A DNA stretch of 64,000 nt from Pseudomonadota bacterium (GTDB lineage Bacteria; Myxococcota_A; UBA9160; SZUA-336): the NCBI GenBank assembly GCA_003247575.1, contig QJZC01000008.1, positions 1 to 64,000 of the forward strand. The letters run 5' to 3'. Every line of letters begins with the position of its first letter. Within the stretch, counting starts at the first letter, position 1. Shown piece after piece: positions 5,851-63,079 of this stretch. Position numbers and translations under genes: made by a program. The notes beneath the pieces are model-generated. The model had not been told where the DNA came from. It saw only the letters and a list, made by a program, of their open reading frames with translations, and did not search any database.

Positions 5851-6161
5851 AATGGCTCGGGGCGATCCACTTGCCTCCGGGCGATTCGCTGAGTGCGCTC
5901 GTTCACCGTGGTGCCATCGGTGTCGAGCTGTAGCTGTTGGGTGTAGGACGCTACATCTTGCGATGTGAGGGGCCATCTCTGCAGAGAGAAGCATTCCGCG
6001 AGATTTCAGATTGCGCGTTGATCTGCAGGGCGTAGCCGAGTCCGTGCTCGAATGTCGTGTTCTTCTAAAGATTCAATGTTTAGCGAAATTTCAGTGCACC
6101 GATGCATGTGTATGCAGTGAGATGTGGTGTGGTGGCTCTATGAAAACATCTCGACCAACTC

Positions 6162-6219
6162 TCACAAGGGCGGCAACGTGCCTCGCATCTGGGAAACGCG
6201 CGGCCCGAGGAGGTTTGCA
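6162..6219 (+). promoter_or_regulatory. Leader elements shared with the paralogous gene at 63 kb
   Basis: TCACAAGGGCGGCA at 6162-6175 and AGGAGGTTTGCA at 6208-6219 occur identically upstream of the second propeller/cytochrome gene (complements at 63066-63079 and 63021-63032). Spacing to the start codon is nearly the same (47 and 49 nt from the first element), while the sequence between them is unrelated. The second element includes the Shine-Dalgarno. The first may be a promoter-proximal, mRNA or protein-binding element. Confidence 0.5.
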
Positions 6220-6222
6220 CTG

Positions 6223-21356: not shown

Positions 21357-21818
21357 TCAGGCGGAAACGGGCAGCATGCCGAGCTTGGGACCGTAGACGG
21401 CGATGTAGCGGAGCATGCGCGCGCGATCCTCCTCGGAGTATCGGTCCTCGAGCTGGACGATCGCCGGGCCGTCGAAGCGCGCGACCTCGTCGAGCTCGAA
21501 CACGAGATCCGGCGCTTCGGGGTGCGTGTAGCTCACGCGTCCCCGGATCTCGACGACCGATCCGTCGCTGCCGGATTGCGTCAGACGTAGGAGCTCGGGT
21601 GAGCGTGTTGCGAAGCGACGATCGAATCCATCGAGAATCTGGCGCAGGTAGCTGACGATCGCATCGCGACCTTCGAAGTAGCCGCCGAGCGGGGCTGGGA
21701 AGGGGACACGGTAGCTCGCACCTTCGGCAAAGTGTGCGGCGACCGCGTCCCAGTCATCGGATTCGAAGGCGCGCTCGAAAGCGGTTGCATAGGCGATGAA
21801 CTGGGCTACGTAGTCCAT
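21357..21818 (-). CDS. SnoaL/NTF2-like protein
   Basis: A 153-residue protein with the cone-shaped NTF2-like pattern: FIAYATAFERAFESDDWDAVAAHFAEGASYRVPF at the N-terminus, then FEGRDAIVSYLRQILDGFDRRF, and beta strands ending FELDEVARFDGPAIVQLEDRYSEEDRARM. Such proteins may be polyketide cyclases, dehydratases, isomerases or simple ligand-binding proteins; the catalytic residues are too variable to assign one. It starts 18 bp after the WD40 protein stop, so it is probably translated from the same mRNA as the cluster upstream. Confidence 0.75.
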   Translation of the reverse strand: MDYVAQFIAYATAFERAFESDDWDAVAAHFAEGASYRVPFPAPLGGYFEGRDAIVSYLRQILDGFDRRFATRSPELLRLTQSGSDGSVVEIRGRVSYTHPEAPDLVFELDEVARFDGPAIVQLEDRYSEEDRARMLRYIAVYGPKLGMLPVSA

Positions 21819-21836: not shown

Positions 21837-23702
21837 TCAGCCATTCGCGTGAAGCTCCGCTTCGTTCGCACTGGAGACTCGACTCGCGTTGTGCTGGAAC
21901 AGCTCATTTCGGCGTACGTCGATCACGCGAGCGGTGCCGCGCATTGCGTCCCAGACGCGGATGGTGCCGTCTCGACTCCCCGAGATCAGGCGTCCGTCCG
22001 AATTCCATTCCAGGGTGCTCACCTCTCGCTGATGTCCGTCGAGAGTGTGCAACGGATGCCCGCTGGATGCATCCCAGATTCGTACGGACGTGTCGAACGA
22101 AGAAGTGGCGATGTAGCGTCCATCGGGCGAGAAGGCGATTCCCCAGATCGTGCGTGTGTGCCCGTGGAGCTCGGTCAGCAGCGCGCCTGTGTGCGACCAG
22201 ATCCGGCCCACTGTGTCGCGTCCCCCACTCGCCAGCTTCTCGCCGGTCGGAGACCAGGACAGGCAGATCACCGGATCCGCATGTCCCGTGAGCTCCGTCT
22301 GCACAGAGAGAGGTGTTCCTGTACATAGCGCGATGTGTGTGTTTCGCCCCGCAGCGGCCAGCAGCTCTTTACGGGGGGACCAAGCAACGGCATAGATCGC
22401 CTGGTCGAAGATCGGGGTGCGGCCCAGCGGTTGACCCGTATCGCAGTCGAACAGCTCGATCGAGCCGTCTTCGCAGCCGATGGCGATTCGGCGTCGCACG
22501 ACGTCCAGGGACAGGCTGTGCGAGGGTGCGCCCAAGCGGTGCTGGGAGTTGAGCGCGAGGTCGTCGAGTTGCCACTGGCGCAGCCAGCCATCGAGGCCGG
22601 CCGTCCAGACGGTCTGGGTTGCTGGGTCCACACACAGCGCTCGGCTGGTGCGCTCGTGGGCTTCCCTTCTGGATTCCGATCCGTACCCCTCTGCGGCGAG
22701 CACGCGCAGGCTGCGATCTCCCTGCATGAAGACGATGCGCCGATCGCTCGTTCCGACCACCCCGGTTACCGCGCGGTTGGCGCCGACACTGCACTGTTCG
22801 ATGCTCGCTCGTTGGACATCGAGGATGCGTATGCAGCCGTCGATCGATGCCGTGGCCAAGCGGTCGCCCGCTCGGTTCCAGGAAACCCACTCGACCTCGT
22901 CGCGATGGCCTTCGATCTGTCCGAGCGGCATGCCGGTGACGGCGGACCAGAGGCGCACGCTGCGATCGTGGGAGCAGCTCGCAATGATGCGTCCATCGGG
23001 GGACACGGCAGCAGCGTCGATGTCGTCGTCGTGCGCCGCGATGCAGATCAGCTCGCGCCCGCTGGGGACATCCCAGACGCGTACGCTGCGATCGTGTGAG
23101 CAGGAGATCAGGCGCTGTTCGTCCGGAGTCCAGGCCACGGTGTTCACGTTGTGGAGGTGGCCGCCGAGTGTGCGGACGAGCCGGAAGGATCTCATGTCGA
23201 AGAGTCGGATCGATCCGTCGTCACAGCTCGTCGCGAGCATCTGACCGCTCGGTGAGAATCGCACGTCCTTGACCAGGCCGCCGTGTCCTTCCAGCACAGC
23301 CAGGCACTCGCCTGTCCATGCGGACCAGAGCCGCGCGGTTCGATCGGCGGAGCCGGTGGCCACGCACTCTCCGTCGGGAGCGAAGCAGGTTGCCCAGATC
23401 GGGCCCTCGTGTCCGCTCAGCCAGTACATGCGCATGCCCGTCGAGGACTCCCAGATCCCGGCTTTGGCATCGTTGCTTCCGGTTGCAATGCGCGATCCAT
23501 CGCTGCTCCAGGTGGCCGACCAGACGCCGTCCTGATGACCGACGAGGCGTCGCTTCGGGGACAGGTCGCGGGCTCCCCAGATGATCGCGCTTCCGTCCTC
23601 GGATGCGGATACGATTCGATCGGAGCGCGGCGACCAGTTCACCATCCAGGCGGGCGCACTGTGTCCGCCCTTCACCGACTCGAGGCGGTTGATGTCGTTC
23701 AT
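21837..23702 (-). CDS. WD40 double-propeller protein 1
   Basis: A 621-residue protein made almost entirely of WD40 repeats. I count 14 consecutive units of about 42 residues, which would form two seven-bladed propellers. Canonical blades include LVGHQDGVWSATWSSDGSRI, LEGHGGLVKDVRFSPSGQML and LHGHTRTIWGIAFSPDGRYI; blades 8-11 are degenerate. No kinase, enzyme domain, signal peptide or membrane segment is seen, so it should be a cytoplasmic scaffold. Its ATG overlaps the stop of the flippase-like gene by 4 bp (ATGA), and the long upstream open frame lies inside that gene. A second protein with the same 14-repeat plan is encoded four genes away in the cluster. Confidence 0.92.
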   Translation of the reverse strand: MNDINRLESVKGGHSAPAWMVNWSPRSDRIVSASEDGSAIIWGARDLSPKRRLVGHQDGVWSATWSSDGSRIATGSNDAKAGIWESSTGMRMYWLSGHEGPIWATCFAPDGECVATGSADRTARLWSAWTGECLAVLEGHGGLVKDVRFSPSGQMLATSCDDGSIRLFDMRSFRLVRTLGGHLHNVNTVAWTPDEQRLISCSHDRSVRVWDVPSGRELICIAAHDDDIDAAAVSPDGRIIASCSHDRSVRLWSAVTGMPLGQIEGHRDEVEWVSWNRAGDRLATASIDGCIRILDVQRASIEQCSVGANRAVTGVVGTSDRRIVFMQGDRSLRVLAAEGYGSESRREAHERTSRALCVDPATQTVWTAGLDGWLRQWQLDDLALNSQHRLGAPSHSLSLDVVRRRIAIGCEDGSIELFDCDTGQPLGRTPIFDQAIYAVAWSPRKELLAAAGRNTHIALCTGTPLSVQTELTGHADPVICLSWSPTGEKLASGGRDTVGRIWSHTGALLTELHGHTRTIWGIAFSPDGRYIATSSFDTSVRIWDASSGHPLHTLDGHQREVSTLEWNSDGRLISGSRDGTIRVWDAMRGTARVIDVRRNELFQHNASRVSSANEAELHANG

Positions 23703-24601
23703 GCTCTCATCTCCACGCATTCGGCCGGTGCCCTCCCGCGGATCCATAGTGCGACCAGGCCGATGGGAACCCGGAGCACCAGGAGGCTGAAGGTATAGGC
23801 CAGTCCAAAGGCCAGCAGACGTTCCTGAGATGCGAAGTCTCGGAAGAAGAAGGCGATCGCTGCCTGCGCCGTGCCCACACTCCCGACCGATATCGGGAGC
23901 GCGCCGATCGCAAGCACCAGGGGGGTCTGTGCGATCGCGGGTCCCCACGGAAGGATGGCTCCGAAACAGGCGGAGCCCAACACGATGAACACGGCGAAGC
24001 TCGCGTGCATCGACGCCCGCATGAATAGGGCGATCCAAAGACGTCGAGGCGGCAGCTCGCTCAGAACCCGCAGTAGCGGCTGGCGCTTCAGCCATCTGCG
24101 AGTTCCCCGGGTGGCGACGACGATCAGAATCGCGGCGCACGCCAGCGCAGCGAGCGGGCCGCGGATCTGAAGCTGACTGGCATCGAGGGTGAATGAGCCG
24201 AGAAGTGCGAGCCCGGTGAGAGCGATCAGGTCGAGAGAGTAGTAGGCGAGCAGACTCCCGCTCGCCCTGGCCAACCCAATGCGCAGCTCGTGGCCCAAGG
24301 TAGCGGCCAGAGCGGCACTCGCAGCGTGGAAGTTGAGGGCGAGAAAGGGGTAGCTCGCGGCGCGCAGGAGGGCCAAGGTACGTAGACTCGGAACCGGAGC
24401 ACCCTCTGGCAGTAGTGCGCGCAAGGCGAGCACGTCGAGTGTGAGCCAGATTCCGATGAAGACGAGGGAGAGAGATAGGTAGCGCGCGAATGATGCTGTC
24501 GCGAGCGCCTGTAGCATCGCTGCGCCGTCCACCCGTGCGAGCAGCACGGCGAGAATCGTCAGCCCCACGATCCAGGGGCCTATCCAGCGCAGTGTCTTCA
24601 C
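23699..24601 (-). CDS. Flippase-like (LPG synthase transmembrane/UPF0104-type) membrane protein
   Basis: A 300-residue polytopic protein starting at a GTG that overlaps the previous stop (GTGA). It has about eight hydrophobic segments, beginning WIVGLTILAVLLARVDGAAML. The sequence ATASFARYLSLSLVFIGIWL and the conserved-looking ALPISVGSVGTAQAAIAFFF, with its glycine-rich turn before the last helices, fit the lysylphosphatidylglycerol-synthase TM/flippase-like family. It lacks the C-terminal aminoacyl-transferase domain of MprF, so it could move or handle a lipid but not aminoacylate it. It is embedded in the coupled gene string between the SDR and WD40 protein 1. Confidence 0.72.
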   Translation of the reverse strand: MKTLRWIGPWIVGLTILAVLLARVDGAAMLQALATASFARYLSLSLVFIGIWLTLDVLALRALLPEGAPVPSLRTLALLRAASYPFLALNFHAASAALAATLGHELRIGLARASGSLLAYYSLDLIALTGLALLGSFTLDASQLQIRGPLAALACAAILIVVATRGTRRWLKRQPLLRVLSELPPRRLWIALFMRASMHASFAVFIVLGSACFGAILPWGPAIAQTPLVLAIGALPISVGSVGTAQAAIAFFFRDFASQERLLAFGLAYTFSLLVLRVPIGLVALWIRGRAPAECVEMRA

Positions 24602-25308
24602 GAGGCCAGGAAGCCTATGCCGTGGACGTCTACGCAGGAGCCGTTGATGCAGACCCCGTCGGGAGATGCCAGGTAGAGGACGGCGCGCGCGACGTCCCGC
24701 GAGAGGACCTTCTGCGGGCCGGCTACACGGTCCGGCGTCGCGGCGTAGCTGAGCTCCTTGTCGACCTCTGCTGGACACACGGCGTTGACCGTAATGGATT
24801 TGTCCCAGAGCTCCTTCGCGAGCGCCTTGGTGAAGCCGATCAGGCCTGCCTTCGACGCACACTGCGCGACGAGTTTGGCGAAGCCCACCTGTCCGTCGAT
24901 CGATGCGATGTTGACGATGCGCGCGTCGCTGCTCTCGAGAAGCAACGGAAGCAGAGATTGAGTCACGTTGAAGACTGCCGTCAGATTGGTGTCGATCGTC
25001 TGGTCCCACTCCTCCGGGGTGTACTCGAGGAATGGACGCTCCATCCAGACCCCCGCATTGTTCACCAGGACGTCCAGCCCGCCGAGCTCGGCTTCTACGT
25101 CCTGACGTAGGGCGCGAACCTGCTGGCGGTCACAGATGTCGGCCACAGTCACCGAGACTCCGAGCTCTTGCCGAAGCTCCTCGAGCTCGTGCTTCGTGCG
25201 CGAAGTGGCATGCACTCGCGCGCCGGCTTCACAGAAGGCTTCGCAGATCGCGCGGCCGATGCCACGGCCGGCGCCGGTGATCAGGACGCGCTGGGGATCG
25301 GGCATCAT
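24598..25308 (-). CDS. Short-chain dehydrogenase/reductase-like protein with substituted catalytic Tyr
   Basis: A 236-residue SDR-fold protein. The cofactor motif is TGAGRGIG (residues 11-18); RTKHE suggests NADP preference, and NNAG is at 83-86. The catalytic Ser is S136 and the Lys is K153, but the position four before Lys, normally Tyr, is Gln (Q149 in AQCASKAG, codon CAG). Spacing is otherwise normal, so this is a substitution and not a misalignment. The usual acid/base catalysis should be lost or changed. Start: the ATG at 25308 shares one base with the methyltransferase stop (TGATG); an ATG three bases later is possible. Its stop overlaps the next gene by 4 bp. Confidence 0.9.
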   Translation of the reverse strand: MMPDPQRVLITGAGRGIGRAICEAFCEAGARVHATSRTKHELEELRQELGVSVTVADICDRQQVRALRQDVEAELGGLDVLVNNAGVWMERPFLEYTPEEWDQTIDTNLTAVFNVTQSLLPLLLESSDARIVNIASIDGQVGFAKLVAQCASKAGLIGFTKALAKELWDKSITVNAVCPAEVDKELSYAATPDRVAGPQKVLSRDVARAVLYLASPDGVCINGSCVDVHGIGFLAS

Positions 25309-26327
25309 CAGTCTCCCTGCTTTCGGCCCAGCCAGAGCCGCGTGTATGGAAGCACCGGGGATACGTCGATCTGCTTCAAGCCAGCTTCCGTCATCCAAGA
25401 CACGATCTGCTCGCTGTCGTGTACCTGGCCCCCGGTGTTGAGCAGCATGTCGAGTCCGAGGAGCGCTCCGACCCGAGACTCCTGTGCGAAGTCGTGGATG
25501 ACCAGATGGCCTCCAGTGGGGAGAGCTGCGGCGATCCGCTGGATGACCCGCCGAGCCTGTTCGGGAGGAAAGCCCATCAGCACGCGCGACAGGATTGCCA
25601 CGTCATACGGAGCGGCGAGCGCGCCACTCGAGAGGTCTCCATGTTCGAAGTTGAGCGCGAGCTGCTCGATCCTCTCGGCGAGTCCAACCGCCTCGATTCG
25701 ATCTCGTGCGTGTTCGAGCGCGAAGTGGTGTTCTACGAGGACGCTGCGAACGTCCGGGAGCAGTCTACACAGCGCGATCAGCAGCTCGCCGTCACCGCCT
25801 CCGAAGTCGACGACGCGCTTCGGGGACAGCTTGGAGATACGCCGTGCAATCTCTGCGAATGCCGGCCGACCGCTCTCGTGCATCGCGAGTACGTAGTTCG
25901 GTAGGAAGCGGCGTAGAACCTCGGGGTCCGAGAGGTGACGGTCGTTCGCCCAGTTTGCAGTGGGCTCTCCCGTGCGGATGCTGTCCGAGAGACCGCCCCA
26001 ACGCGTCCAGTGCCAATGGTCGTGTTGTAGCAGGTGTCCCAGATGGTCGGGGCTGTCCGGATCGAAGCAACCGGCCGACTCGGGCGAGATCTGCCAGACA
26101 GGGGCGCCTGCGTCGTGCCCGGGCTTCCGCTCCAACACGCCGTAGCAGGTGAGGGCATCGAGCCAGACGCGGAGTGCTCGCGGGTCGAGTCCGCAACGAC
26201 GCGAGAGCTCCTCGGAGCATTGCGGAGCGTGCCGCAACGCGTCGAAGAGTCCGGTCTCCAGTCCGGCGAAGATTGCCGCTGCAAAGCGAAACCCGAAGAC
26301 GCGTCGATGGAGCTCGCCCGGGGTCAT
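25308..26327 (-). CDS. SAM-dependent O-methyltransferase with N-terminal winged helix
   Basis: A 339-residue protein resembling acetylserotonin/plant-type O-methyltransferases. The N-terminal dimerisation/winged-helix region includes RFAAAIFAGLETGLFDAL and CGLDPRALRVWLDALTCYGVL. The Rossmann SAM-binding motif is RVVDFGGGDGELLIAL (about 170-185), and a later VIHDFAQES matches the post-motif segment. Such enzymes methylate phenolic or other hydroxyls of secondary metabolites; the substrate is not visible. The ATG at 26327 overlaps the stop of WD40 protein 2 by 4 bp (ATGA), which also argues against the longer upstream frame. Confidence 0.87.
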   Translation of the reverse strand: MTPGELHRRVFGFRFAAAIFAGLETGLFDALRHAPQCSEELSRRCGLDPRALRVWLDALTCYGVLERKPGHDAGAPVWQISPESAGCFDPDSPDHLGHLLQHDHWHWTRWGGLSDSIRTGEPTANWANDRHLSDPEVLRRFLPNYVLAMHESGRPAFAEIARRISKLSPKRVVDFGGGDGELLIALCRLLPDVRSVLVEHHFALEHARDRIEAVGLAERIEQLALNFEHGDLSSGALAAPYDVAILSRVLMGFPPEQARRVIQRIAAALPTGGHLVIHDFAQESRVGALLGLDMLLNTGGQVHDSEQIVSWMTEAGLKQIDVSPVLPYTRLWLGRKQGD

Positions 26328-28063
26328 GCGGCTACCGACATCCGTGCTACGTCGTTGCCCGAGGAGTCGACGACGATCAGGCTGCCCGCTCGGTCCCACG
26401 CAGAAACCAGGAAGCCTCGATCGTAGGGGGCGATCTTGGACAGGCTGGCCTCTGCAACCGTGCGGAGCTGCGTCTCTCCGGTCTGGGGATTCCACAGACC
26501 CACGGTGCCATCGTAGTAGCTGGCTCCGATCCGGCTTCCATCGCCAGCGAAGGCGACGCTCTTGGCAGAGCACGGATGCGCGCTGAAAGCTCCGATCAGT
26601 TCGCCCGAGGTTTGCCATAGCTGCACACCGTCGCGGCGCGAAGCGGTCGCGAGGCGCTCACCCGACAGGCTGACGTCGTTCAAGATGGTGCTTCCCGCGC
26701 GAAAGCAGCGCGCACGACCGCGCTCGAAGGACTTCACGCGTCCATCGCGCCCCACGCTGACGATTCCGTTCTTGGACGCAGCGATGGATTTTACCGACCC
26801 CTGGTGCTTCCCCAGCACGCGGGTAGAGTTGCGCTCGAGATCCCAGGCGATGATGTCCCCGTTGAAAGTTCCCGCAAAGAGGTGGTTCCCGGTCGCATCG
26901 AACGCGATCGCGTTGACAGGATCTCCGAGTCCTTGCCATTCCGCGATCGGGTCCTTGCTGTTTCGGTCCCAGACGAGGATCCTGCGGTCCCACGACCCCG
27001 TCGCGAATCGGGAGCCATCTCGCGTTGCCGTTACGCAGAGCACGGCGGCTCGGTGGTGTGCGACCTGGCCGAGCGAACATCGCCGCGCGAGATCCATCGC
27101 GTAGACCCCCCCGTCATCGCTGCAGATCAAGGCTGTATCATTCCCGGCGAGCGTAAAGGAGTTGATCCCGTGATTGGACTGCCGTCCGAGGTCGCGAGCG
27201 CCGTCCTCGGCGAGCAAGCTGGGTCCACTGGCGAAGCTGCCGGTCAACCAGCCTCGGGGGGTCCAGGCAAGCGTCCGATTCCAGAGCCCCTCGTGTCGAA
27301 GGGTCGCGCGTAGGGAGAAGCGCTGGGTCTCGTAGATGCGAATGCAGCCATCGTAGGCGGCGCTGGCCAGCTCGCTTCCATCGGGTGAGAACGCCACCGC
27401 CTTGACCACGCAACGTGCATCGTCGATGTGGAAGCGACGTTCGCCACTCACGGTATCCCAGATCGAGAGGCTCCCGTCGAGGCAAGCCGACGCGAGCATG
27501 CGTCCAGTAGGGTCGATGGCGATGTCGTCCACCCAGTCGAGATGGCCGCCGAGGACCTTGCGGATGCGGCCATCGCCGACGTCGAAGACCGAGACCGTTC
27601 GATCATCGGAGCAGGCCGCGAGCCGCCGGCCGTCGGGGAACCAGGCAACCGAGTTCACATCGGCCGCGTGGTGGCCTGCGATCAGAAGGCACTGGCCCTT
27701 CACGCTCCACACGCGCACGGTTCCATCGAACGATGCGGTGGCGACGTGGTTTCCCGAGGGCGAGAAGCGAATCGCGTTCACGTCATCTCGATGGCCCTCG
27801 AGAAGCGCGAGCTCACGCCCCGACGAAGCGTCCCAAATGCGTGCGGTGTGGTCACTGCTCGCCGAGCCGATCATCTGACCATCTGGTGACCAATCCACAC
27901 CATTGACGAGAGCGGTATGCCCTGACAGGCGTCGAATCGGCTCGCCCCGCTCGCTGTCCCACAGGATGATCGAGCGATCATAGCTGCCCGATGCGATGGC
28001 AGTCCCGGAAGGCGAGCTGCAGGCGCACGAAGTGGGGGCGGTGTGTCCATGTGGATGTGTCAT
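26324..28063 (-). CDS. WD40 double-propeller protein 2
   Basis: A 579-residue protein built of WD40 repeats. I count 14 units, enough for two seven-bladed propellers, as in the other WD40 protein of this cluster. Clear blades include LSGHTALVNGVDWSPDGQMI, LEGHRDDVNAIRFSPSGNHV and WQGLGDPVNAIAFDATGNHL; units 6-8 and 11-14 are degenerate. There is no signal peptide, membrane helix or catalytic domain. The start codon lies one base after the stop of the PaaK-like ligase, and the stop overlaps the methyltransferase start, so it is locked into the cluster. A scaffold or assembly platform for neighbouring enzymes is the natural guess, not shown. Confidence 0.92.
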   Translation of the reverse strand: MTHPHGHTAPTSCACSSPSGTAIASGSYDRSIILWDSERGEPIRRLSGHTALVNGVDWSPDGQMIGSASSDHTARIWDASSGRELALLEGHRDDVNAIRFSPSGNHVATASFDGTVRVWSVKGQCLLIAGHHAADVNSVAWFPDGRRLAACSDDRTVSVFDVGDGRIRKVLGGHLDWVDDIAIDPTGRMLASACLDGSLSIWDTVSGERRFHIDDARCVVKAVAFSPDGSELASAAYDGCIRIYETQRFSLRATLRHEGLWNRTLAWTPRGWLTGSFASGPSLLAEDGARDLGRQSNHGINSFTLAGNDTALICSDDGGVYAMDLARRCSLGQVAHHRAAVLCVTATRDGSRFATGSWDRRILVWDRNSKDPIAEWQGLGDPVNAIAFDATGNHLFAGTFNGDIIAWDLERNSTRVLGKHQGSVKSIAASKNGIVSVGRDGRVKSFERGRARCFRAGSTILNDVSLSGERLATASRRDGVQLWQTSGELIGAFSAHPCSAKSVAFAGDGSRIGASYYDGTVGLWNPQTGETQLRTVAEASLSKIAPYDRGFLVSAWDRAGSLIVVDSSGNDVARMSVAA

Positions 28064-28064
28064 C

Positions 28065-29375
28065 TCATTGCTCCCGAAGCAGGCGCTCGACGATCTTGCG
28101 TTTGCCGCCGGGCCCGCGCGTCAGTGTCGCCACGATGGCGACTTCTACCTGCGCATCCCCCCCGAGGATGCGCTCGAGATTGCGCTGGCTCTCGAGCTTG
28201 CAGCTCTCCAAGTGATCTCTGTGGCGCCCAGGTACGATCTGGACGCGGACCTTCGTCGGGCTTTCCTGCGTGATTCGATAGTCGCGATAGATCTGCTCGC
28301 CGGGATGGCTGAAGCAGGGTCGCTTCACCGCTACCGTGAGCTTCGATGGGTGGATCCGGCGACCGTTTCGAAGCTCTACGTAGTCGTCGTCGCGTCCTTC
28401 GAGGCGCTGGAGCACCGGAAGGGTCAGCCCGCACGTACAGGGCGACGTCTCCGCCTCCCAGGCTGCCAGATCTCCCAGGCGATAGCGGATGAAGGGTTGG
28501 GCGAAGTTGTTGAGTGAGGTGACCAGTACGTGGCCGACCTCTCCCCGCGGTACGGCTCGGCCTGCGGAGTCGACGATCTCCAGCACGACGTTGTCGGGGA
28601 ACTGATGTAGCGATCCCTGTTTGCACTCTGCGGCGATCGCCCAGACCTCGTTGCAATAGTAGTTGCACGAGATGGGGCAGCCGAAGCGGGCCTCGATGTA
28701 GCTGCGCTCGTCTTGGGACAGGGGCTCGGAGTGGACGCAGATGCGTTCGAGCTCGAGTCCGGTCAGGTCGTGATCGATGCGCTCGAGTAGCTCGAAGAGA
28801 TCGCTGGGTGTCGCTGCGAGCAGATGCGGACGGAATGCACGCAGCTGCGCTACGATGCGCTCGGGCGGATCGTTGGTCGAGATGTGCCGATTCCTGTAGA
28901 GACCTACGTTCTTCTGGAGGGGGAGCGGATAGGGGAACAAGTACGCCATCCGCTTCCAGAACTTGAAGCCGACGAGGCCATAGACGCGCTGTGTGAACAG
29001 GGTGCGCTGGTCGTCGGTGAATCGGTCGATCGCGATCTCCATACATTGTCCAGACGAGCCCGAGGTCTGCTGGATTCGACACCGGTCCAAGCGAACACCT
29101 TCTGTCAGGCACGCGTTCGGGAAGGCATCACGCACGTCGTCCTTCTCGGTGATCGGGAAGCGTTCGAGGTCCGCGAGCGTTGCCAGCGCGTCGGGATGGA
29201 CGCCTGCTTTGTCGAAGAGCTCCCTGTAGAGGGGCACCTCCGAGTACGCGGAGTGGAGCGTTCGGCGCAGACGCTGTAGCTGGTACGCCGCCAGTGCTTC
29301 GGGCGAGAGACGCAGCCGACCTTGGGTCAATGGGAGCTGCATGAGCTTGTTCAGGGTCGAGATGATCGTTCTCAT
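28065..29375 (-). CDS. PaaK/CapK-like adenylate-forming ligase
   Basis: A 436-residue protein of the phenylacetate-CoA ligase/CapK family. The N-terminus has LHSAYSEVPLYRELFDKAGV and PITEKDDVRDAF, and the ATP-binding loop QQTSGSSGQCMEIA is at about residue 104. Later motifs are CVHSEPLSQDER, FIRYRLGDLAAW and LEGRDDDYVELRNGRRIHPS, with a C-terminal lobe that includes GKRKIVERLL. Family members activate aromatic or other acids as adenylates and transfer them to CoA or another acceptor. Its start overlaps the stop of the MMPL transporter by 4 bp. It is the likely acid-activating step of the cluster, with an unknown acceptor. Confidence 0.88.
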   Translation of the reverse strand: MRTIISTLNKLMQLPLTQGRLRLSPEALAAYQLQRLRRTLHSAYSEVPLYRELFDKAGVHPDALATLADLERFPITEKDDVRDAFPNACLTEGVRLDRCRIQQTSGSSGQCMEIAIDRFTDDQRTLFTQRVYGLVGFKFWKRMAYLFPYPLPLQKNVGLYRNRHISTNDPPERIVAQLRAFRPHLLAATPSDLFELLERIDHDLTGLELERICVHSEPLSQDERSYIEARFGCPISCNYYCNEVWAIAAECKQGSLHQFPDNVVLEIVDSAGRAVPRGEVGHVLVTSLNNFAQPFIRYRLGDLAAWEAETSPCTCGLTLPVLQRLEGRDDDYVELRNGRRIHPSKLTVAVKRPCFSHPGEQIYRDYRITQESPTKVRVQIVPGRHRDHLESCKLESQRNLERILGGDAQVEVAIVATLTRGPGGKRKIVERLLREQ

Positions 29376-31624
29376 GATTCCTCCGCCGCAAGTTCCAGTC
29401 CCGGTACGCGGGTACGATGCATCAGGCGCAGTCCGGCTGGGAGCACTACGAGATCGCCGACGAGGGCCGCCAGGATCGCGCAGCAGACTAATGTCCCGAA
29501 GTGCGCGGTGGGCTTGAATCCCGACAACGTGAGAGCAGCGAATCCGCTCACGAGAACGAGCGAGCTGACGATCACTGCGCGCCCGGCGATTTCGAGTGCG
29601 CGTCGCATCGCGTGGCTCTCACTGAGGCCGAGTGCCAAGCCGCGTTGGAAGGCGCGGCAGAGGTGGATCGTGTCGTCCACGATGATCCCCATCGCGATCG
29701 AGGCGACCATCACCGTGACGACGTCGAGGCGGATGCTCGAGAACCCCATGACGGCTGCGAGGCAGGCTACGGGGACGAGATTCGCGAGGAGTGCCACCAG
29801 GGCCAGGCGCAGGGAGCGCAGCAGGACGAGAAAGACCAAGGTAATGCCCAGGATCGCGACCCCGTAACTGGCCAGCTGCCCCTCGACCAGATACTGCTCC
29901 ATCTGCGAGAAGACGGGGACGAGTCCGGTCGGGCGTGCGCTCCAGCCCGCAGGAAGGATCTCCTGGCCGCGTGAGCGAACCATGGCGATCAGTTCTTCGC
30001 TGCGGGCCGAGGTCATGCCTTCGGCACGCGTACTGATTCGCAGCCGGGGAGGCGAGTCGTGGACGAAGCGCTCCACCTCGCTCGGCGCGACGGCTTGGGT
30101 GAGGAAGAGCGCGCGTTCGAGCGCCCGTGGATCCTCAGAGTCGACTCCGGGGTAGGCGGTCTCGACCAGGTCCATGAGAGAGTGGCCGCGCGAGAGCTCG
30201 GGAATCTTGGCGAGCTCGTCCTGCATCCGCCTGACTGCGAGCAGGCTGGCGCCGGTCCGCAGGTTTTGAGCCGAGTCTGGGACGAGCTCGATCTCGAAGG
30301 GGGTGATTCCTCTCATGTGGTGCTCGAGCACACGATAGGCACGGTTGATGGGATGCTGCTCGGCGAAGAACTCACCGTCGTGCGTCGCCACCTCTACGCG
30401 CGGAATCGCGGCCGCAGCCAAGGCGAGCGACACGGCGACCAGCGACGCCGCCCAGTAGGGCCGCCGTGCGAGCCCGTTCAGACTGCCGAGCCATGCCCAG
30501 TCCGTGCGGAGGGTGGCTGCGGCCTCGAGCGGCATGCGACACATGAGTGCTGGCAATGTGACCAGCGCATGAAACAGAGCGCAGGTCACCCCGAGTACTG
30601 CAAAGAGGCCGAAGGTTTGCACGCTCGAGATCTTCACGAGGCCGAGCGATGCGAAGCCAACGGCGGTGGTCACCGACGTCCAGACGCAGGATGGGCCGAT
30701 CTCGCGCAGGGTCCACGCGATGGCGTCCTCACGGGAGTCTCCGTCGGACAAGCGATGGATGTAGCAGTCCAGCACGTGAATGGCGTCGGCGGCCGCGATC
30801 ACCATCAGCAGCGGGGGAAGCAGCGACGTGGTGATGTTCATCGGAACTCCGAGCCAGCCCATCAACCCCTGGGTCCAGAGAACCGTGGCCCCGATGACGA
30901 GCAGGCTCAGGAAGCTGGGCAGTGGACGGCGGAACAAGAGACCGGTTCCGAGGGTGACGATCAGGAGCGCGAGCGGAGTGAAGATTGCGTTGTCGCGCTG
31001 GTTCAGCACTGCGAGTTCCCGGTTGAACACGGGGGAGCCAGCGGCGAGGGGCGCAAGCTCCGCGAACTCGCTGCGCGCCAGGATCTCATCGATCCCAGCG
31101 AGTGCCTTCTGCTCGGTGTCGGAGTTGTCTAGCTCGTTCCCTGCGAGCTGCACCGCCAGGAGGAGCATGCGTCCGTCGCCGGATACCAGGCTGTCCCGTA
31201 CGAACGGGCTCTCGAGCGCGCGTGTCCGCAGATCCTCAGCGTCGTCCAGATCATCCGGCACGAGGGGACGGCTGAACGGGCCGAAAGGACCCACGTCGAC
31301 CGTCGATACCGTGTCGAGTGAGCTGACCCAGCGGACCTCGGGAAGCTCGAGCAGTGCATCCGTCAGGTCTCGCAGGCGCGCCAGCTCCGCAGGAGCGAAG
31401 GCGTCGTCCACCTCGTAGCCGAGGATGATGAGGTCGTCGCTCCCCCAGCGCTGCACGAAATCGCGATAGTTCTCGAGCTCGTCGCTGCCCTCGAGCGTGA
31501 TTACCTCGGGGTCGTTCGTCCATGCGACGCGCAGATATCCGATGGCCAGCAATCCGCTCAGGATGGCGACCAGCACGAGCGCGATGCGGCCGTGCTGGGT
31601 GACGAGTCGGGAAAGCGAGTCCAT
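29372..31624 (-). CDS. MMPL/RND-superfamily exporter
   Basis: A 750-residue protein with the RND plan: one N-terminal helix (ALVLVAILSGLLAIGYL), a large periplasmic domain, a helix bundle (about 220-400), a second lone helix and periplasmic domain, and a final bundle. Motif-like pieces include SLLPPLLMVIAAADAIHVLD and VMVASIAMGIIVDDTIHLCR, the paired polar residues expected for proton relay in MMPL/SSD proteins. These transporters move lipids, hopanoids or lipid-linked products out of the inner membrane. It starts one base after an exported protein of unknown function and overlaps the PaaK-like gene, so it probably exports the product made by this cluster. A LolA-like protein is encoded 20 kb away. 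Confidence 0.9.
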   Translation of the reverse strand: MDSLSRLVTQHGRIALVLVAILSGLLAIGYLRVAWTNDPEVITLEGSDELENYRDFVQRWGSDDLIILGYEVDDAFAPAELARLRDLTDALLELPEVRWVSSLDTVSTVDVGPFGPFSRPLVPDDLDDAEDLRTRALESPFVRDSLVSGDGRMLLLAVQLAGNELDNSDTEQKALAGIDEILARSEFAELAPLAAGSPVFNRELAVLNQRDNAIFTPLALLIVTLGTGLLFRRPLPSFLSLLVIGATVLWTQGLMGWLGVPMNITTSLLPPLLMVIAAADAIHVLDCYIHRLSDGDSREDAIAWTLREIGPSCVWTSVTTAVGFASLGLVKISSVQTFGLFAVLGVTCALFHALVTLPALMCRMPLEAAATLRTDWAWLGSLNGLARRPYWAASLVAVSLALAAAAIPRVEVATHDGEFFAEQHPINRAYRVLEHHMRGITPFEIELVPDSAQNLRTGASLLAVRRMQDELAKIPELSRGHSLMDLVETAYPGVDSEDPRALERALFLTQAVAPSEVERFVHDSPPRLRISTRAEGMTSARSEELIAMVRSRGQEILPAGWSARPTGLVPVFSQMEQYLVEGQLASYGVAILGITLVFLVLLRSLRLALVALLANLVPVACLAAVMGFSSIRLDVVTVMVASIAMGIIVDDTIHLCRAFQRGLALGLSESHAMRRALEIAGRAVIVSSLVLVSGFAALTLSGFKPTAHFGTLVCCAILAALVGDLVVLPAGLRLMHRTRVPGLELAAEES

Positions 31625-31625
31625 C

Positions 31626-32285
31626 TCAGTCCACCGCCCAGCGAATCACCGACCGGCTGCGGGCGTCGAGGCGGTCGGCAGGCTCGGACATGAAAGCGAT
31701 ACGTGCGAGACTGGCGACAGGGCGCAGCGCTAGATCCGCGATCAGGCTTCCAGCGAGGACGCGACCGGGAATGCGGGATGTATACACGGACGGGTGGATG
31801 AGAGCGTCGCGCATGAACTCGAGCGGATCCATCGGTAGGAGCGGGCCCGTATCCGTGTCGTGGAGCAACGGGTTGAGCTCACTCATCTCTGTCTGCAGGT
31901 ACCACTCGGCCTCGAGCCCGTGGCTCCCGAGAATCGCTTCGCTCCCCGAGACGTGCAGCAGGTACGCAGTGCGTGACAGAGCCTTGCTGAAGGTCGCCTT
32001 GAAGACGTGTTGCGTGGTCAGGTTGTCGTCGACGATCCCGACGATGTCCGAGGCCGCCATCAGGAGCTGACCCGCGGTGAGCGCGACCTCGGCGAACACG
32101 CCGGTTTGAAGGTCAGTCGCGCAATCGGTCAAGCCGACGAAGCCGTCGCGCATCTCCCGCAACCATGTCTGGGCCGTGCCCTGCGGCTCTTCCTCGACGT
32201 GCCAATCCAGGGACTCTGCCGCCGCGCGTGGAGCGGGCAACATGCAGGCCAGCAGAGCGGCGATCGTGCAGAGCACTCGCGTCAT
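31626..32285 (-). CDS. Exported protein of unknown function
   Basis: A 219-residue protein with a clear signal peptide (cleavage near PRAAAES). I do not recognise a family. The mature part has a Trp/Glu-rich start, a Cys-containing helix-like stretch (GLTDCATDLQTGVFAEVALTAG), and the segment LNPLLHDTDTGPLLPMDPLE, which is unlikely to be a membrane span. Its ATG directly follows the stop of the Arg-tailed protein gene with no gap (TGAATG), and its stop is one base before the MMPL gene. It therefore probably serves the exporter or its product in the periplasm. Confidence 0.65.
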   Translation of the reverse strand: MTRVLCTIAALLACMLPAPRAAAESLDWHVEEEPQGTAQTWLREMRDGFVGLTDCATDLQTGVFAEVALTAGQLLMAASDIVGIVDDNLTTQHVFKATFSKALSRTAYLLHVSGSEAILGSHGLEAEWYLQTEMSELNPLLHDTDTGPLLPMDPLEFMRDALIHPSVYTSRIPGRVLAGSLIADLALRPVASLARIAFMSEPADRLDARSRSVIRWAVD

Positions 32286-32822
32286 TCAGCGTCTCCGCCG
32301 GCGGCGTCGTCGGCCATCCTGAGTGTTTTTGTAGGCTTCGACCTGGGCGCTCTCCCACACCGCATAGCGTGCCATCTGGTCCTCGGAAAGCACGCTGCGA
32401 AGCTGGTCGTGGCTACGCGACTGACCGGCGAGGACCAGATCCCGCATCTGCTGCTCCTTGCTGGACTCGCTGAGCTCGCTCCGGTTCACGACCTCGACGA
32501 TCTCGGCGTAGACGTCGAGCGCCACGCTCTTGTAGATCGCGAGCATCCGAGTGCGTTGCTCCGGCGCGAGGGCGATGTCCTCCACGTTCTCCTCGACCGC
32601 CGCGAGTGTACGCGTGGCCATGTCCTCGGACAGTCGCTCGACCTGATCCGGCTCGAGGCGAATCCCGTTGATCTCCCACACCTTCGGGTTTTCGGTGGAA
32701 TCTGGCACCCGCGCGGCGCGGACCTCCTCCGCCTGCACCGCCGGGGAGGACGGCAGGAGGGAGAAGGCACTGCCGAGGAGTAGGAGAGTCAGCAGTCTCT
32801 TGAGGATCCTCCGCAGAGTCAT
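32286..32822 (-). CDS. Small exported protein with eight-arginine C-terminus
   Basis: A 178-residue protein with a signal peptide (LLTLLLLGSAFSLLPSS, cleavage near AVQAEE), a mainly helical, charged middle (LEPDQVERLSEDMATRTLAA, LAPEQRTRMLAIYKS, LSESSKEQQMRDLVLAG), and an end GRRRRRRRR. The mature helices resemble generic Spy/CpxP- or zinc-resistance-like periplasmic proteins, but I see no diagnostic motif. The arginines are encoded by mixed codons, so they are not simple triplet slippage. The gene overlaps the TPR protein stop by 4 bp and abuts the following gene. Confidence 0.7.
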   Translation of the reverse strand: MTLRRILKRLLTLLLLGSAFSLLPSSPAVQAEEVRAARVPDSTENPKVWEINGIRLEPDQVERLSEDMATRTLAAVEENVEDIALAPEQRTRMLAIYKSVALDVYAEIVEVVNRSELSESSKEQQMRDLVLAGQSRSHDQLRSVLSEDQMARYAVWESAQVEAYKNTQDGRRRRRRRR

Positions 32823-34081
32823 GCTTCGGGCTCCTGAAAGCCATCGCGCGAGTACCAGCAGACGTTGTCGGGCGTCTCGGCGAGCAGCATCGCAGCGTGC
32901 TCCTGGTCTACTCGATCGAGTGGAGTGAGAGCCGGCAAGGCCAGGATGCGCCGCAGCTCGCGAGTCGCACGGAGTCGATCATCGTCGCGATCGCGGCAAG
33001 CGTACTCCACGGCCAGCTCCAGTCCGAAGTCGATGCGCTTCGGTTGCAGCCGGATCGCCAGAGCGATGAGCTCGAGCGCGCGGTCGAGATCCCCGCGAGT
33101 TCCCGCCACCGCCATGTACCAAGCATCGGGTGCGAGTCGGTAGAACTGGGCGAGCGCGTAGAGCGCATCCGCTCGGGTCGAGCTGCCGAAGAATGCGTAC
33201 TCGTAGGGGAGAGTCGTGGCCCGTTCCAAAGCCTCCGCGATCTCGGCGGGCCCGCCCGCTCCGAGCATCGTGCGGAGTGCGACTCGGAAGTTGCCGAGCG
33301 CCGTCGCGCGCCGCCCTAGGGCGATCCCGCGCCATAGGTACCCTTCTGCCAGGGTGGGAGCGCGCGCGATGGCGGCATCGGCGAAGTCGAGGGCTCGAGC
33401 GAATGCGGCGCTGCGCTCCGCGGGACCGAGCTCGCGCTCGTCTTCCTCGATCTCCAGAAAGCACAGGCGCGCGAGCATCCAGTGTGGAACTGGTGACTCC
33501 TTGCGAAGCGCACGGGCCTGCTCGAGCTTTCGACGCGCCGCTTCGAATTGCCGATCGTAGAGAAGCTCCTCGGCGGACAAGAGCAGGTCGTCGAATGCGG
33601 CGAGCTGACCCAGATCGCCGGATTCCGGGGGTAGAGACACGCGTTCATAGCGGATGGTGCGGGTGCAGGGTAGGTCGAGTCCGCTCAGGTACCGCGATCG
33701 ATACTCCGGCTCGATGGGTACATCGATGTGTACGGTGAGCGTCTCGCTCCGATGGTCGCTGCTCAGCCGCGAGGTGACTTGGATGCGACCCGATCCGACC
33801 CGATAGCTGCGGATGGACCGATCGTCGACGAACGTGCTCGGGCGGTCCAGATTCCAGAAGTGGGCGCGCACGTCGACGGCATGGTTGTCCGAAAGCGATA
33901 GCTCGCGGGGCATCTCTGAGTCCGGAAGCCCCGGACATCCCGTCGATTCTGCGGGGGTCAGGACTTCGCGCTCGAGCAAGCGCGTCGGACTGCTGGAATC
34001 GGAGCCTTCTGGCTCTGCCTGTGTGGCGCGTCCGCCCGCGAAGGCCCCCACGATCCCGAGCGCGACGGGCAGCCATTTCAT
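32819..34081 (-). CDS. Exported TPR-like protein
   Basis: A 420-residue protein with an N-terminal signal sequence (VALGIVGAFAGGRATQA). The first half looks beta-rich and has an isolated Cys pair region (TGCPGLPD, DLPCTRTI). The second half, from about residue 160, is helical with TPR-like pairs: LLSAEELLYDRQFEAARRKL, RALDFADAAIARAPTLAEGY, ADALYALAQFYRLAPDAWYM and RALELIALAIRLQPKRIDFG. TPRs mediate protein binding, so it is probably a periplasmic adaptor. Both ends overlap neighbours by 4 bp (lipoprotein 2 upstream, Arg-tailed protein downstream). Confidence 0.75.
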   Translation of the reverse strand: MKWLPVALGIVGAFAGGRATQAEPEGSDSSSPTRLLEREVLTPAESTGCPGLPDSEMPRELSLSDNHAVDVRAHFWNLDRPSTFVDDRSIRSYRVGSGRIQVTSRLSSDHRSETLTVHIDVPIEPEYRSRYLSGLDLPCTRTIRYERVSLPPESGDLGQLAAFDDLLLSAEELLYDRQFEAARRKLEQARALRKESPVPHWMLARLCFLEIEEDERELGPAERSAAFARALDFADAAIARAPTLAEGYLWRGIALGRRATALGNFRVALRTMLGAGGPAEIAEALERATTLPYEYAFFGSSTRADALYALAQFYRLAPDAWYMAVAGTRGDLDRALELIALAIRLQPKRIDFGLELAVEYACRDRDDDRLRATRELRRILALPALTPLDRVDQEHAAMLLAETPDNVCWYSRDGFQEPEA

Positions 34082-34479
34082 TCCGTGCGCACCTGCTGTC
34101 CCTGTATCCGAATCGTGCGAGGTGCCCAGAGATAATAGCCATAGAAGGCGCCGGGAATCACCGAGATGAAAACATCGAACTCCGAGAACCGAGTCTCCAC
34201 GGCGAGGTTCTGGATCCTCGCCGGCGGCGCATCCTGCGGCGCCAAGTCCTCTACGCTGAAGCTCGAGTATGGGAACAGTCCCGCCAGGAACCAGTTCTTG
34301 TGGGCCTCTTCATCGAAGCTCTGAACGCGCTCGCCACTGCGGGTAGGGAGCTTGCCGAAGTAGCTGCCCTTCGGCAGCTGATGCTCGACCGTGAAGCAGC
34401 CGGAACAGAGCATCCCGAGGCTCAGTCCGTAGGCGACTCCGCGAACCACACTGCGCAAACGCTTCGATCTCTGCATCAT
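34078..34479 (-). CDS. Bor-like small lipoprotein 2
   Basis: A 133-residue predicted lipoprotein with lipobox GMLCSGC followed by FTVEH. The mature part has GERVQSFDEEAHKNWFLAGL, DLAPQDAPPARIQNLAVETR, SVIPGAFYGYYLW and a final RTIRIQGQQV. This spacing (Cys-FTV, an F/W-containing strand, a helix, then a glycine-rich hydrophobic strand near the end) resembles lambda Bor and is shared with the protein encoded just upstream. Bor-type proteins are small outer-membrane lipoproteins linked to serum resistance in enterobacteria; no phage genes are near, so that role is not implied. It overlaps both neighbours by 4 bp. Confidence 0.7.
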   Translation of the reverse strand: MMQRSKRLRSVVRGVAYGLSLGMLCSGCFTVEHQLPKGSYFGKLPTRSGERVQSFDEEAHKNWFLAGLFPYSSFSVEDLAPQDAPPARIQNLAVETRFSEFDVFISVIPGAFYGYYLWAPRTIRIQGQQVRTE

Positions 34480-34871
34480 CGAGTCTCCTCGAGGTCAACG
34501 ACGTCCCCCTCCGCCCATGCGGACCAGCTCCCACACAGGATCCCGAGACCGCACGGGATGTGAATCAGCGCGTCGATCACGTCCTGTCCGTCTCCGATTC
34601 GAAGATTCACCACGCCGTCATGGTCTCCGATCTCGCGCGCAGCGAGTTCGGCCGCATTCAGCGGTTCGCCCGTGGGGATGCCACCGTGGATCCAGAAGAA
34701 TTGACGTTGCCGCACCGAAAAGTGTCGGACCTTCTTGGCGGAGAAGCCCGGGACCTCGGCATCGGGAGTCAGCAGCTTCGGACCATCGTAGCCATGTTGG
34801 ACCGTGAAACACCCGGAGATGACCAAGCCGAGCGCAGCCGTCAGGGGAATGAGTCTAGCCGAACGAGTCAT
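34476..34871 (-). CDS. Bor-like small lipoprotein 1
   Basis: A 131-residue predicted lipoprotein, first gene of the coupled cluster. Signal peptide and lipobox are LTAALGLVISGC, followed by FTVQHGYDG. Downstream features match a Bor-like fold: HFSVRQRQFFWIHGGIPTGE, a helix LNAAELAAREIGDHDGVV, and the strand LIHIPCGLGILCGSWSAWAE with two Cys that could pair. It is a diverged paralogue of the next gene, sharing the SGCFTV-x-H start. The promoter of the whole 13- to 15-kb string probably lies in the 184-bp gap between it and the rightward SUMF1 gene. Confidence 0.72.
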   Translation of the reverse strand: MTRSARLIPLTAALGLVISGCFTVQHGYDGPKLLTPDAEVPGFSAKKVRHFSVRQRQFFWIHGGIPTGEPLNAAELAAREIGDHDGVVNLRIGDGQDVIDALIHIPCGLGILCGSWSAWAEGDVVDLEETR

Positions 34872-35055
34872 GAGTTGGCTCCTGGAGTGATCGCCGTGGG
34901 TATCGTCGATTCGACCATGAGTATCGTCCTTTTGTTCTGAACGACATGAAGGAAGGATGAAGCCCCTTGTCTAATTCTGAACCTGTGCGAGGGCTGTCGA
35001 AGGCGCTTGGCGTCGCAGGGTTGACAGATGCTGGAGATGACCCAAGCTGGCAATT

Positions 35056-35991
35056 GTGTCCTCTATCGACCCTATTCTCCTATCGAATCGGCTTCCCGCG
35101 ATGCGCGCCTGGATCGAGCGACTTCCGAGTGCAGAGTGCGGCCGCGCGGTAGAACTCTTGCTGGGCGTGGTCGAGCGGGCGGACGAGCCGCTGATGGTGC
35201 GGATCTCAGCGGGAAACGCGTTGGGAATGCTTGGAGATCCTCGGATCGACACGCTACGCCCGGCGATGTGCCGCGTGCAAGGTTCCACGTTCGACATGGG
35301 GACGGCAACCGCAGAGGCCGCGCGCATAGCCCGCGTGTACGGCATTCCTGCTCACTGGATGACGAAGTCGACGCCGCGGCACCGGGTCGAGGTCGATTCG
35401 TTCGAGATCGGGCGCTATCTCGTCACGGAGTTCGAGTACTGCGCGTTTCTCGAGGCTACGGGCTTCCACGACCGCCCGTCGCACTGGGTCAAGGGAGAGC
35501 CGTCTCCGTACCGCCGCAACCACCCGATCTACGGGATCGGATGGCAAGGTGTGCTGCTCTACGTGGAGTGGCTTCGCGAGGAGACGAGCCTGAACTACCG
35601 GGTCGCGACGGAGGCAGAATGGGAGCTGGCTGCGAGTGGGGGCGATGGACGCGCCTTTCCTTGGGGCGGGACGTTCGATGCCGGCTGCTGCAACACGCGC
35701 GAAGGGGGCATCGGGGGGACGACGCCTGTAGGCGTATACCCTCATGGCGCCTCTCCGGTGGGAGCGCTGGATCTGGCGGGGAACGTCGAGGAGTACACGG
35801 CCGACCTCTATCGGGCGTATCCGGGCAGCGAGTTCGATGATCCTGACTATGGAAGCTACAGGATGACACGCGGGGGGACGTTCTCGCTGGACGCAGACCT
35901 GGCGCGCTGCGACCGTCGGCACGGAGATCTGTATGGGAGCGAGATCGGCTTCCGGCTCGCGCGCAGCGTGGCGGGTGGCTGGTCCGACTGA
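35056..35991 (+). CDS. SUMF1/formylglycine-generating-enzyme-like domain protein
   Basis: A 311-residue protein with a SUMF1 (FGE/EgtB/PvdO) domain covering most of it: GSTFDMGTATAE, VDSFEIGRYLVTEFEYCAFL, RVATEAEWELAASGG, FPWGG, GNVEEYTADLY, and RGGTF with GSEIGFRLAR at the end. The paired copper-binding cysteines of true formylglycine-generating enzymes are not in the expected arrangement (only one Cys, in LARCDRRHG), so sulfatase maturation is unlikely; a non-haem-iron or structural role is possible. The first 75 residues are helical, HEAT-like. The GTG start has a weak ribosome site; the ATG at 35101 is an alternative. The gene diverges from the long cluster. Confidence 0.85.
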   Translation: MSSIDPILLSNRLPAMRAWIERLPSAECGRAVELLLGVVERADEPLMVRISAGNALGMLGDPRIDTLRPAMCRVQGSTFDMGTATAEAARIARVYGIPAHWMTKSTPRHRVEVDSFEIGRYLVTEFEYCAFLEATGFHDRPSHWVKGEPSPYRRNHPIYGIGWQGVLLYVEWLREETSLNYRVATEAEWELAASGGDGRAFPWGGTFDAGCCNTREGGIGGTTPVGVYPHGASPVGALDLAGNVEEYTADLYRAYPGSEFDDPDYGSYRMTRGGTFSLDADLARCDRRHGDLYGSEIGFRLARSVAGGWSD

Positions 35992-37352: not shown

Positions 37353-37409
37353 CGCAGAGATCGGGCCGCAGGGGCTCTCTGGCTGGGTCCGGGCTTCCTG
37401 AGAGGACTG

Positions 37410-37658
37410 CTAGGCATGTCCCTCGAGGCGCTTCGACAGATAGATCTCGGCGGCGCCGATCGTGAGCATCTGCGGGATGTCCTCTTCGGGAATCCGAATG
37501 GCAAAATGCTCCTCTAGCGTCAGGGCGAGATCCGCCAGGTCGAGCGAGTCGGCCTCGAGGTCATCGACCAGCGAGGTCTCCGGCGTCAGGGCTTCGGGCC
37601 GGACGTCCAGCCGATCTGCGATGACTCCGATGATGCGCGCGCGAATTTCGGGATCCAA
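37410..37658 (-). CDS. Acyl carrier protein
   Basis: An 82-residue acidic protein with the phosphopantetheine attachment site EADSLDLADL; the modified Ser is S38. It begins at TTG with AGGGAGG at proper spacing. The four-helix ACP pattern is intact (IIGVIADRLDV, SLVDDLEADSLDLADLALTL, IPEEDIPQMLTIGAAEIYL). It sits just ahead of the FabF-type gene, which should use it. It appears to be a specialised ACP and not the housekeeping one, since the residues around the Ser deviate from the usual GADSLDTVEL. Confidence 0.93.
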   Translation of the reverse strand: MDPEIRARIIGVIADRLDVRPEALTPETSLVDDLEADSLDLADLALTLEEHFAIRIPEEDIPQMLTIGAAEIYLSKRLEGHA

Positions 37659-41893: not shown

Positions 41894-41909
41894 GGCGCAG
41901 GAGGAGGGC

Positions 41910-44837: not shown

Positions 44838-44872
44838 GCTCGCTCCCCAGTTTCTAGTCCGGAGGTGTGTCG

Positions 44873-63016: not shown

Positions 63017-63020
63017 CTGA

Positions 63021-63079
63021 TGCAAACCTCCTAGGGCTGGCAGCCCCCTCAAATTGCGTGGTCTCTGCCGCCCTTGTGA
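63021..63079 (-). promoter_or_regulatory. Leader elements shared with copy A
   Basis: On the minus strand TCACAAGGGCGGCA (63066-63079) and AGGAGGTTTGCA (63021-63032) precede the start, as in copy A. The bases between are different in the two copies, so the match is not just recent duplication of the whole leader. Confidence 0.5.

Follow-up and report, generated by a model that had tools for sequence, protein, structure and literature searches.

The question raised by this locus is what a tightly packed set of genes encoding two WD40 proteins, an acid-activating ligase, an MMPL transporter and several exported proteins does in an uncultured lineage. The genes lie in a stretch of 64,000 nucleotides, referred to here as the window (positions 1 to 64,000 of contig QJZC01000008.1, assembly GCA_003247575.1; GTDB lineage Myxococcota_A, UBA9160, SZUA-336). 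The reading favoured here, with a rough probability of 0.45, is that the locus makes and exports a small molecule of unproven structure and has borrowed for one step a pair of proteins resembling ToxC and ToxD, which in toxoflavin operons are biosynthetic proteins whose reaction is unclear. The source assembly is 5.8 Mb in size and 74% complete, and the genomes compared with it (including G008, G034, G004 and G006) are fragmented assemblies. The features of the locus are as follows.

34476-34871, minus strand: LP1, small lipoprotein with lipobox ISGC, without a Pfam family; 58% orthologue in G008
34078-34479, minus strand: LP2, small lipoprotein-like protein whose N-terminus resembles that of LP1 (GCFTV[QE]H); 50% orthologue in G008
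32819-34081, minus strand: TPR, an exported protein that matches TPR repeats weakly; orthologues in G008, G034 and G004
32286-32822, minus strand: EXPa, small exported protein with a C-terminal Arg run, kept in three genomes
31626-32285, minus strand: EXPb, exported helical protein of no known family, serving as the cluster marker
29372-31624, minus strand: MMPL/RND transporter, HAE3-like, with a sterol-sensing-type repeat; cluster members form one clade in the tree
28065-29375, minus strand: PaaK, a PaaK/CapK-like AMP-forming ligase with intact motifs
26324-28063, minus strand: WD40-2, WD40 protein assigned to the ToxC type by sequence signature, alignment and tree
25308-26327, minus strand: MTase, methyltransferase of O-methyltransferase fold with Met at the catalytic His position
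24598-25308, minus strand: SDR, short-chain dehydrogenase/reductase-like protein with Gln for the catalytic Tyr (QCASK)
23699-24601, minus strand: flip, LPG_synthase_TM/flippase-like membrane protein without the synthase domain; orthologues in G008, G034, G004 and G006
21837-23702, minus strand: WD40-1, companion of WD40-2, a 14-bladed double propeller in the predicted structure
35056-35991, plus strand: FGE, protein of formylglycine-generating enzyme fold, divergent from LP1 and assigned to the ToxD type by structure match, motif and tree
34872-35055, no strand: 184-bp divergent intergenic region, by its position the likely promoter region for both units
21357-21818, minus strand: NTF2, SnoaL/NTF2-like protein 18 bp downstream of WD40-1, not kept with the cluster
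19683-21206, minus strand: Hsp70-like ATPase-domain protein, not kept with the cluster

The minus-strand run from 34871 to 21837 comprises 12 genes, and each of its junctions is an overlap of 4 or 1 bp or a gap of 0 or 1 bp. Overlaps of 4 bp join LP1 to LP2, LP2 to TPR, TPR to EXPa, MMPL to PaaK, WD40-2 to MTase, SDR to flip and flip to WD40-1; the other junctions are EXPa/EXPb (0 bp), EXPb/MMPL (+1 bp), PaaK/WD40-2 (+1 bp) and MTase/SDR (-1 bp). The tight coupling reported in a preliminary description of the locus is therefore confirmed, as are the wider spacings downstream (+18 bp from WD40-1 to NTF2 and +150 bp from NTF2 to the Hsp70-like gene). The boundaries given there hold from LP1 to WD40-1, but NTF2, which had been included, is not conserved and the divergent FGE gene had been missed. 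Genes for NTF2, Hsp70, an extracytoplasmic function (ECF) sigma factor and a GDSL protein are absent at the other loci, and all four were ruled out as cluster members. Scans for regulatory sites, which are weak in this organism, found no promoter- or terminator-like site inside the run on its strand and no sigma-70 match in the intergenic region.

The strongest indication that these genes belong together comes from relatives. A 54% relative of the PaaK-like ligase is encoded in the metagenome-assembled genome OFTM159 (G034), from another family of the same class, where the gene order is TPR-EXPa-EXPb-MMPL-WD40-1-PaaK-WD40-2-FGE-MTase-SDR-flip and most junctions are 4-bp overlaps. Eleven genes including FGE thus stand there in one coupled operon in which WD40-1 and FGE occupy other places than in the window and only the lipoproteins are missing, a reshuffled order with near-complete gene retention that is hard to account for without selection for linkage. 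Nine cluster genes are found in G008, a member of the same family as the window genome, in the order LP1-LP2-TPR-EXPa-EXPb-MMPL-PaaK-MTase-flip with a 336-aa exported protein between the last two, and G004 carries TPR-EXPa-EXPb-MMPL on one short contig and SDR-flip-WD40-1, with cytochrome genes between flip and WD40-1, on a second. The recovery of the cluster with 4-bp coupling in a different family indicates gene linkage beyond chance. Within the class, EXPb is present in 4 of 91 genomes, and a sample of 379 genomes from the phylum yielded no others; WD40-1 occurs in 5 of the 91, including all four that carry EXPb (hypergeometric p ~2e-6, uncorrected for kinship). More distant relatives of PaaK (~30%, in Streptomyces and elsewhere) are accompanied by nothing else from the cluster apart from SDR or FGE-fold proteins of common kinds. 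LP1 to WD40-1 form one coupled unit, from which FGE diverges, and the linkage of the set persists, in rearranged form, in two families. The preliminary description is borne out in so far as there is a single cluster, coupled and conserved, of acid-activating ligase, MMPL, exported proteins and lipoproteins; scattered homologues, which would have spoken against it, are not what the related genomes show for the core set. A distant EXPb paralogue (24%) lies outside the cluster in G004 (L124:5523-6233, contig C89).

Most of the gene names given previously agree with Pfam, with the exception of the lipoproteins, which had been called Bor-like and have no Pfam match at E<=1, Bor included; flip (31.6 bits against the LPG_synthase_TM cut-off of 33.4) and PaaK fall below their Pfam cut-offs. 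Among the exported proteins, TPR has no matches in the PDB, the EXPb profile gives chance myoglobin matches only, and the AlphaFold2 (AF2) model of EXPb, built from an alignment of 2 rows, is poor (predicted local distance difference test, pLDDT, 41), so that no fold search was made from it. The C-terminal Arg run of EXPa is present in all three genomes compared and is odd for a periplasmic protein. Of the two double propellers proposed earlier, that of WD40-1 is borne out by its AF2 model (56 strands, equal to 14 blades; pLDDT 85; Foldseek matches to 2ymu and 1nr0), which predicts a double seven-bladed propeller, while WD40-2 is a putative double propeller as judged from its sequence.

The nearest relatives of FGE and WD40-2 point to a pair of proteins from toxoflavin-type loci. 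The best solved-structure match of FGE is ToxD (7spq, E 1.4e-63), other FGE-fold structures matching at 3e-18 or worse, and a motif of the form RGG-x(6)-DLARxxRRHG unites the cluster FGE with ToxD-like proteins, while five other proteins of FGE fold lack it. In the same region (RGG..ARC..RHG), FGE of the window and of G034 lacks the Cys pair of formylglycine-generating enzymes. Plasmids of Azospirillum, Streptomyces (two), Halobacillus and Rhizobium/Agrobacterium encode its ToxD-like relatives. Five independent ToxD-like loci in other phyla each have a nearby WD40 protein of ~570-630 aa; in the four with annotation, GTP cyclohydrolase II or RibD is encoded as well, and the Azospirillum locus additionally encodes a methyltransferase and an RND pump, a gene content equal to that of toxoflavin-type operons (toxABCDE). 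The locus on Halobacillus litoralis plasmid pLDW-31 (L155; Bacillota) contains two WD40 genes, GTP cyclohydrolase II, a DUF692 protein, an aldo/keto reductase and a pyridoxal phosphate enzyme.

Kinship among the WD40 proteins was judged from a signature and a tree, as BLAST alone is useless where regular-repeat proteins dominate. The ToxC-like set consisted of WD40 proteins adjoining ToxD-like genes, with the sequence of ToxC itself outside the comparison; ToxC is presumably a WD-repeat protein, in keeping with its gene position. WD40-2 aligns with the ToxC-like proteins colinearly from end to end (E 1e-28 to 1e-41), shares their N-terminus and carries near residue 230 the signature [AS]YD-x(20-25)-W-x-R, which is found in 4 of 4 WD40-2 and 4 of 4 ToxC-like proteins, in none of 3 WD40-1 and in none of 5 generic WD40 proteins. 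In the tree, WD40-2 is placed with moderate support outside the group formed by generic WD40 proteins and WD40-1. By these sequence comparisons WD40-2 is classed as ToxC-like and FGE as ToxD-like. We know of no established action for either ToxC or ToxD, and the literature found on the two describes operons and gives no mechanism.

WD40 and related domains have been described in sensor and conflict systems of multicellular bacteria (PMC7159879), and generic plasmid WD40 matches are mostly fusions to NB-ARC, caspase or peptidase domains. It is nevertheless very improbable that the WD40 and FGE-fold proteins form such a module instead of a biosynthetic pair, as the cluster has no NTPase or effector domain and WD40-2 and FGE bear ToxC- and ToxD-specific motifs.

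In the favoured reading, PaaK, as its predicted function implies, would turn an acid, aryl or acyl, into an adenylate/CoA thioester, WD40-1, WD40-2 and FGE would form a cytoplasmic complex performing or organising a chemical step, and the S-adenosylmethionine (SAM)-binding MTase may add a methyl group. The product would then be carried over the inner membrane by flip and MMPL and taken to the outer membrane by TPR, EXPa, EXPb and the lipoproteins. Although below the AMP-binding Pfam cut-off, the ligase matches solved phenylacetate-CoA ligases at ~1e-38, and its P-loop, the Asp of YRLGD, GRDDD and the C-terminal Lys of GGKRKI are invariant in three genomes. SDR keeps the cofactor motif (TGAGRGIG, for TGxxxGIG) and NNAG. 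Its catalytic Tyr is replaced by Gln in the window as well as in G034 and G004 (QCASK, against YCASK in aligned solved structures), and it is probably no ordinary dehydrogenase. MTase keeps its SAM motif and has LMGF, IMGF or LMGL in the three genomes where MmcR has VLHDW with the catalytic His, and may still methylate through a different mechanism. The modification enzymes of the preliminary description are accordingly doubtful, and the lipid or aromatic product suggested there is unproven.

Several observations weigh against the favoured reading, among them the absence of the usual catalytic residues from MTase and SDR. The export/ligase cluster of G008 stands without WD40, FGE and SDR genes, and the WD40 and SDR genes, physically unlinked from it in that genome, could serve another function; an FGE counterpart is lacking in G008, and no strong one was found in G004. 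The node joining the cluster FGE to ToxD-like proteins has moderate support (82/87), as does the deep node of WD40-2 and the ToxC-like proteins, and for MMPL both cargo and direction are presumed. No GTP cyclohydrolase II was found among the cluster genes (one housekeeping RibA-type gene is present elsewhere in each genome, with an extra distant copy in G034), nor any RibD-type deaminase/reductase (ToxE) in a search confined to the cluster, so that there is no support for the known route leading here to an azapteridine. As this route needs ToxB and ToxE, the locus is not counted among the toxoflavin clusters.

The co-location of ligase, MTase, SDR, MMPL, flip and lipoproteins would also fit the pathway of the preliminary description, in which a lipid or aryl-lipid, once activated by PaaK, would be altered by MTase and SDR on scaffolds of WD40 proteins and then sent through MMPL to the outer membrane, akin to aryl polyenes. 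An acyl carrier protein (ACP; 37410-37658) and a FabF-like synthase (36084-37352) encoded on the same strand just upstream agree with such a product. It is considered unlikely, as ACP and FabF are missing at the sister loci, SDR lacks its Tyr and MTase its His, and the export cluster of G008 is unlinked to WD40. WD40-2 and FGE, moreover, match ToxC and ToxD, not scaffolds, and together with the separation of the WD40 pair from the export cluster in G008 this leaves unsupported the role of assembly platform previously given to the WD40 proteins; the nearest relatives in function of WD40-2 and FGE are biosynthetic proteins of the ToxC/ToxD type. The ACP-FabF pair itself (window 36084-37658, minus strand, just upstream of FGE) was set aside as a part of the pathway on account of its absence from sister loci.

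The genes that accompany WD40 and FGE in sister loci bear on the chemistry. In G008, the WD40-1/WD40-2 pair lies on other contigs, with an HdrC-like iron-sulphur protein of the membrane next in line; in G006, which has no EXPb, the pair is neighboured by an HdrC-like protein, a hemerythrin and a Crp/Fnr-type regulator, and in G053 an HdrC-like protein directly precedes FGE. Another contig of G006 (L151:6165-11228) carries FGE, an SDR remnant (the last ~50 residues), flip and a trio comprising a 5-haem cytochrome c, a cytochrome b561-type protein and a multihaem cytochrome c, an arrangement that looks like a scar from deletion of the export/ligase genes. The orthologous trio (5-haem c, b561-type and 13-haem c) precedes TPR in G034 and lies between flip and WD40-1 in G004, a linkage to the cluster seen in two families (L111:5604-8804 and L138:950-4040); none is found near the window locus. 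The cluster thus consists of two joined modules, one of export and ligase genes and one of WD40 and FGE with a variable membrane redox partner. The presence of cytochromes or an HdrC-like partner in sister loci, a part that the window locus lacks, hints at redox chemistry, either as a step of the pathway or as a property of its product. An MMPL gene beside the cytochrome trio in G061 was weighed as a cluster member, and the MMPL tree did not settle its position. A hybrid cluster protein and an Fe-S/FAD reductase are encoded ~1 kb downstream of the cluster in G034 (L112:3753-6548).

These neighbours, that is, the HdrC-like protein in G006, G008 and G053, the Crp/Fnr regulator and hemerythrin in G006, the trio in G034, G004 and G006 and the hybrid cluster protein of G034, would also fit two independent systems at one locus, the export/ligase genes on one side and WD40, FGE and redox genes on the other, for example an envelope unit next to one for respiration or nitrosative stress. 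This explanation is doubtful given that the genes of the window and G034 are interleaved, translationally coupled and reshuffled but all retained, and that all EXPb genomes also carry WD40-1. Rather improbable, too, is a new export pathway in which the ToxC/ToxD-type pair, off the azapteridine route, would take an acid activated by PaaK as the base on which to build or tailor a redox-active compound that MMPL exports and that, in the sister genomes, would exchange electrons with the cytochrome or HdrC-like partner as a redox mediator in the envelope or outside the cell.

Ligases of the PaaK kind are classical enzymes of catabolism, and neighbours of the G008 cluster resemble, from a reading of their sequences and no family scan, a CoA-transferase and an acyl-CoA dehydrogenase. 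The locus might on this basis be catabolic, MMPL and the envelope proteins importing an aromatic or terpenoid acid from which PaaK makes a CoA ester for degradation. There is little to favour this, as the conserved set includes no ring-cleavage or beta-oxidation genes and MMPL proteins of established function are exporters.

Elsewhere in the window, two exported proteins of ~1000 aa (6124-9174, plus strand, and 60071-63052, minus strand), 81% identical and 51 kb apart, have two CxxCH motifs each and no Pfam family; the pair is an inverted duplicate of a nameless cytochrome-like family. Inorganic carbon uptake genes lie at 40262-46207 (plus strand), where DabA and a DabB-like Proton_antipo_M protein come after a SulP-type transporter.

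A second, quite different cluster using the ToxC/ToxD pair without pteridine-forming enzymes would detach the chemistry of the pair from the toxoflavin pathway, and the locus supplies new ToxC/ToxD-like proteins for testing. It also highlights, in an uncultured lineage, an export cluster with the nameless families EXPa, EXPb and LP1/LP2 and a conserved SDR with a consistent Tyr to Gln replacement.

A search of the literature for the combination of WD40, MMPL and phenylacetate-CoA ligase returned nothing, and each known system matches the locus in part. Aryl polyene and MMPL-containing aryl-lipid clusters combine an acid-activating ligase, a methyltransferase, an SDR and an MMPL exporter, all of which the window locus also has, but it lacks a conserved ketosynthase, ACP and dehydratase and its ligase is of the PaaK type. 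Phenylacetate-CoA ligase PaaK shares fold and motifs with the cluster ligase (2y27, 4r1l), which at 138.7 bits falls short of the equivalog cut-off (646) and has no paa genes nearby. The two MMPL/sterol-sensing-like repeats are those of MMPL/HAE3, HpnN and RND-type sterol exporters, although the cluster protein is far under the curated cut-offs and is accompanied by no hopanoid or sterol genes. The toxoflavin operon comprises toxABCDE plus the transporter genes toxFGHI (PMC6337347, PMC5851621). The window locus differs from it in lacking GTP cyclohydrolase II and RibD, in the addition of PaaK, MMPL, flip, TPR/EXPa/EXPb and lipoproteins and in having two WD40 proteins, as does the Halobacillus locus. 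Its methyltransferase, which has an O-methyltransferase fold and no catalytic His, is a candidate for the role of ToxA. Common to both is the presence in one locus of a WD40 protein and an FGE-fold protein, in the window apparently of ToxC and ToxD type, with a SAM methyltransferase and an RND-superfamily exporter.

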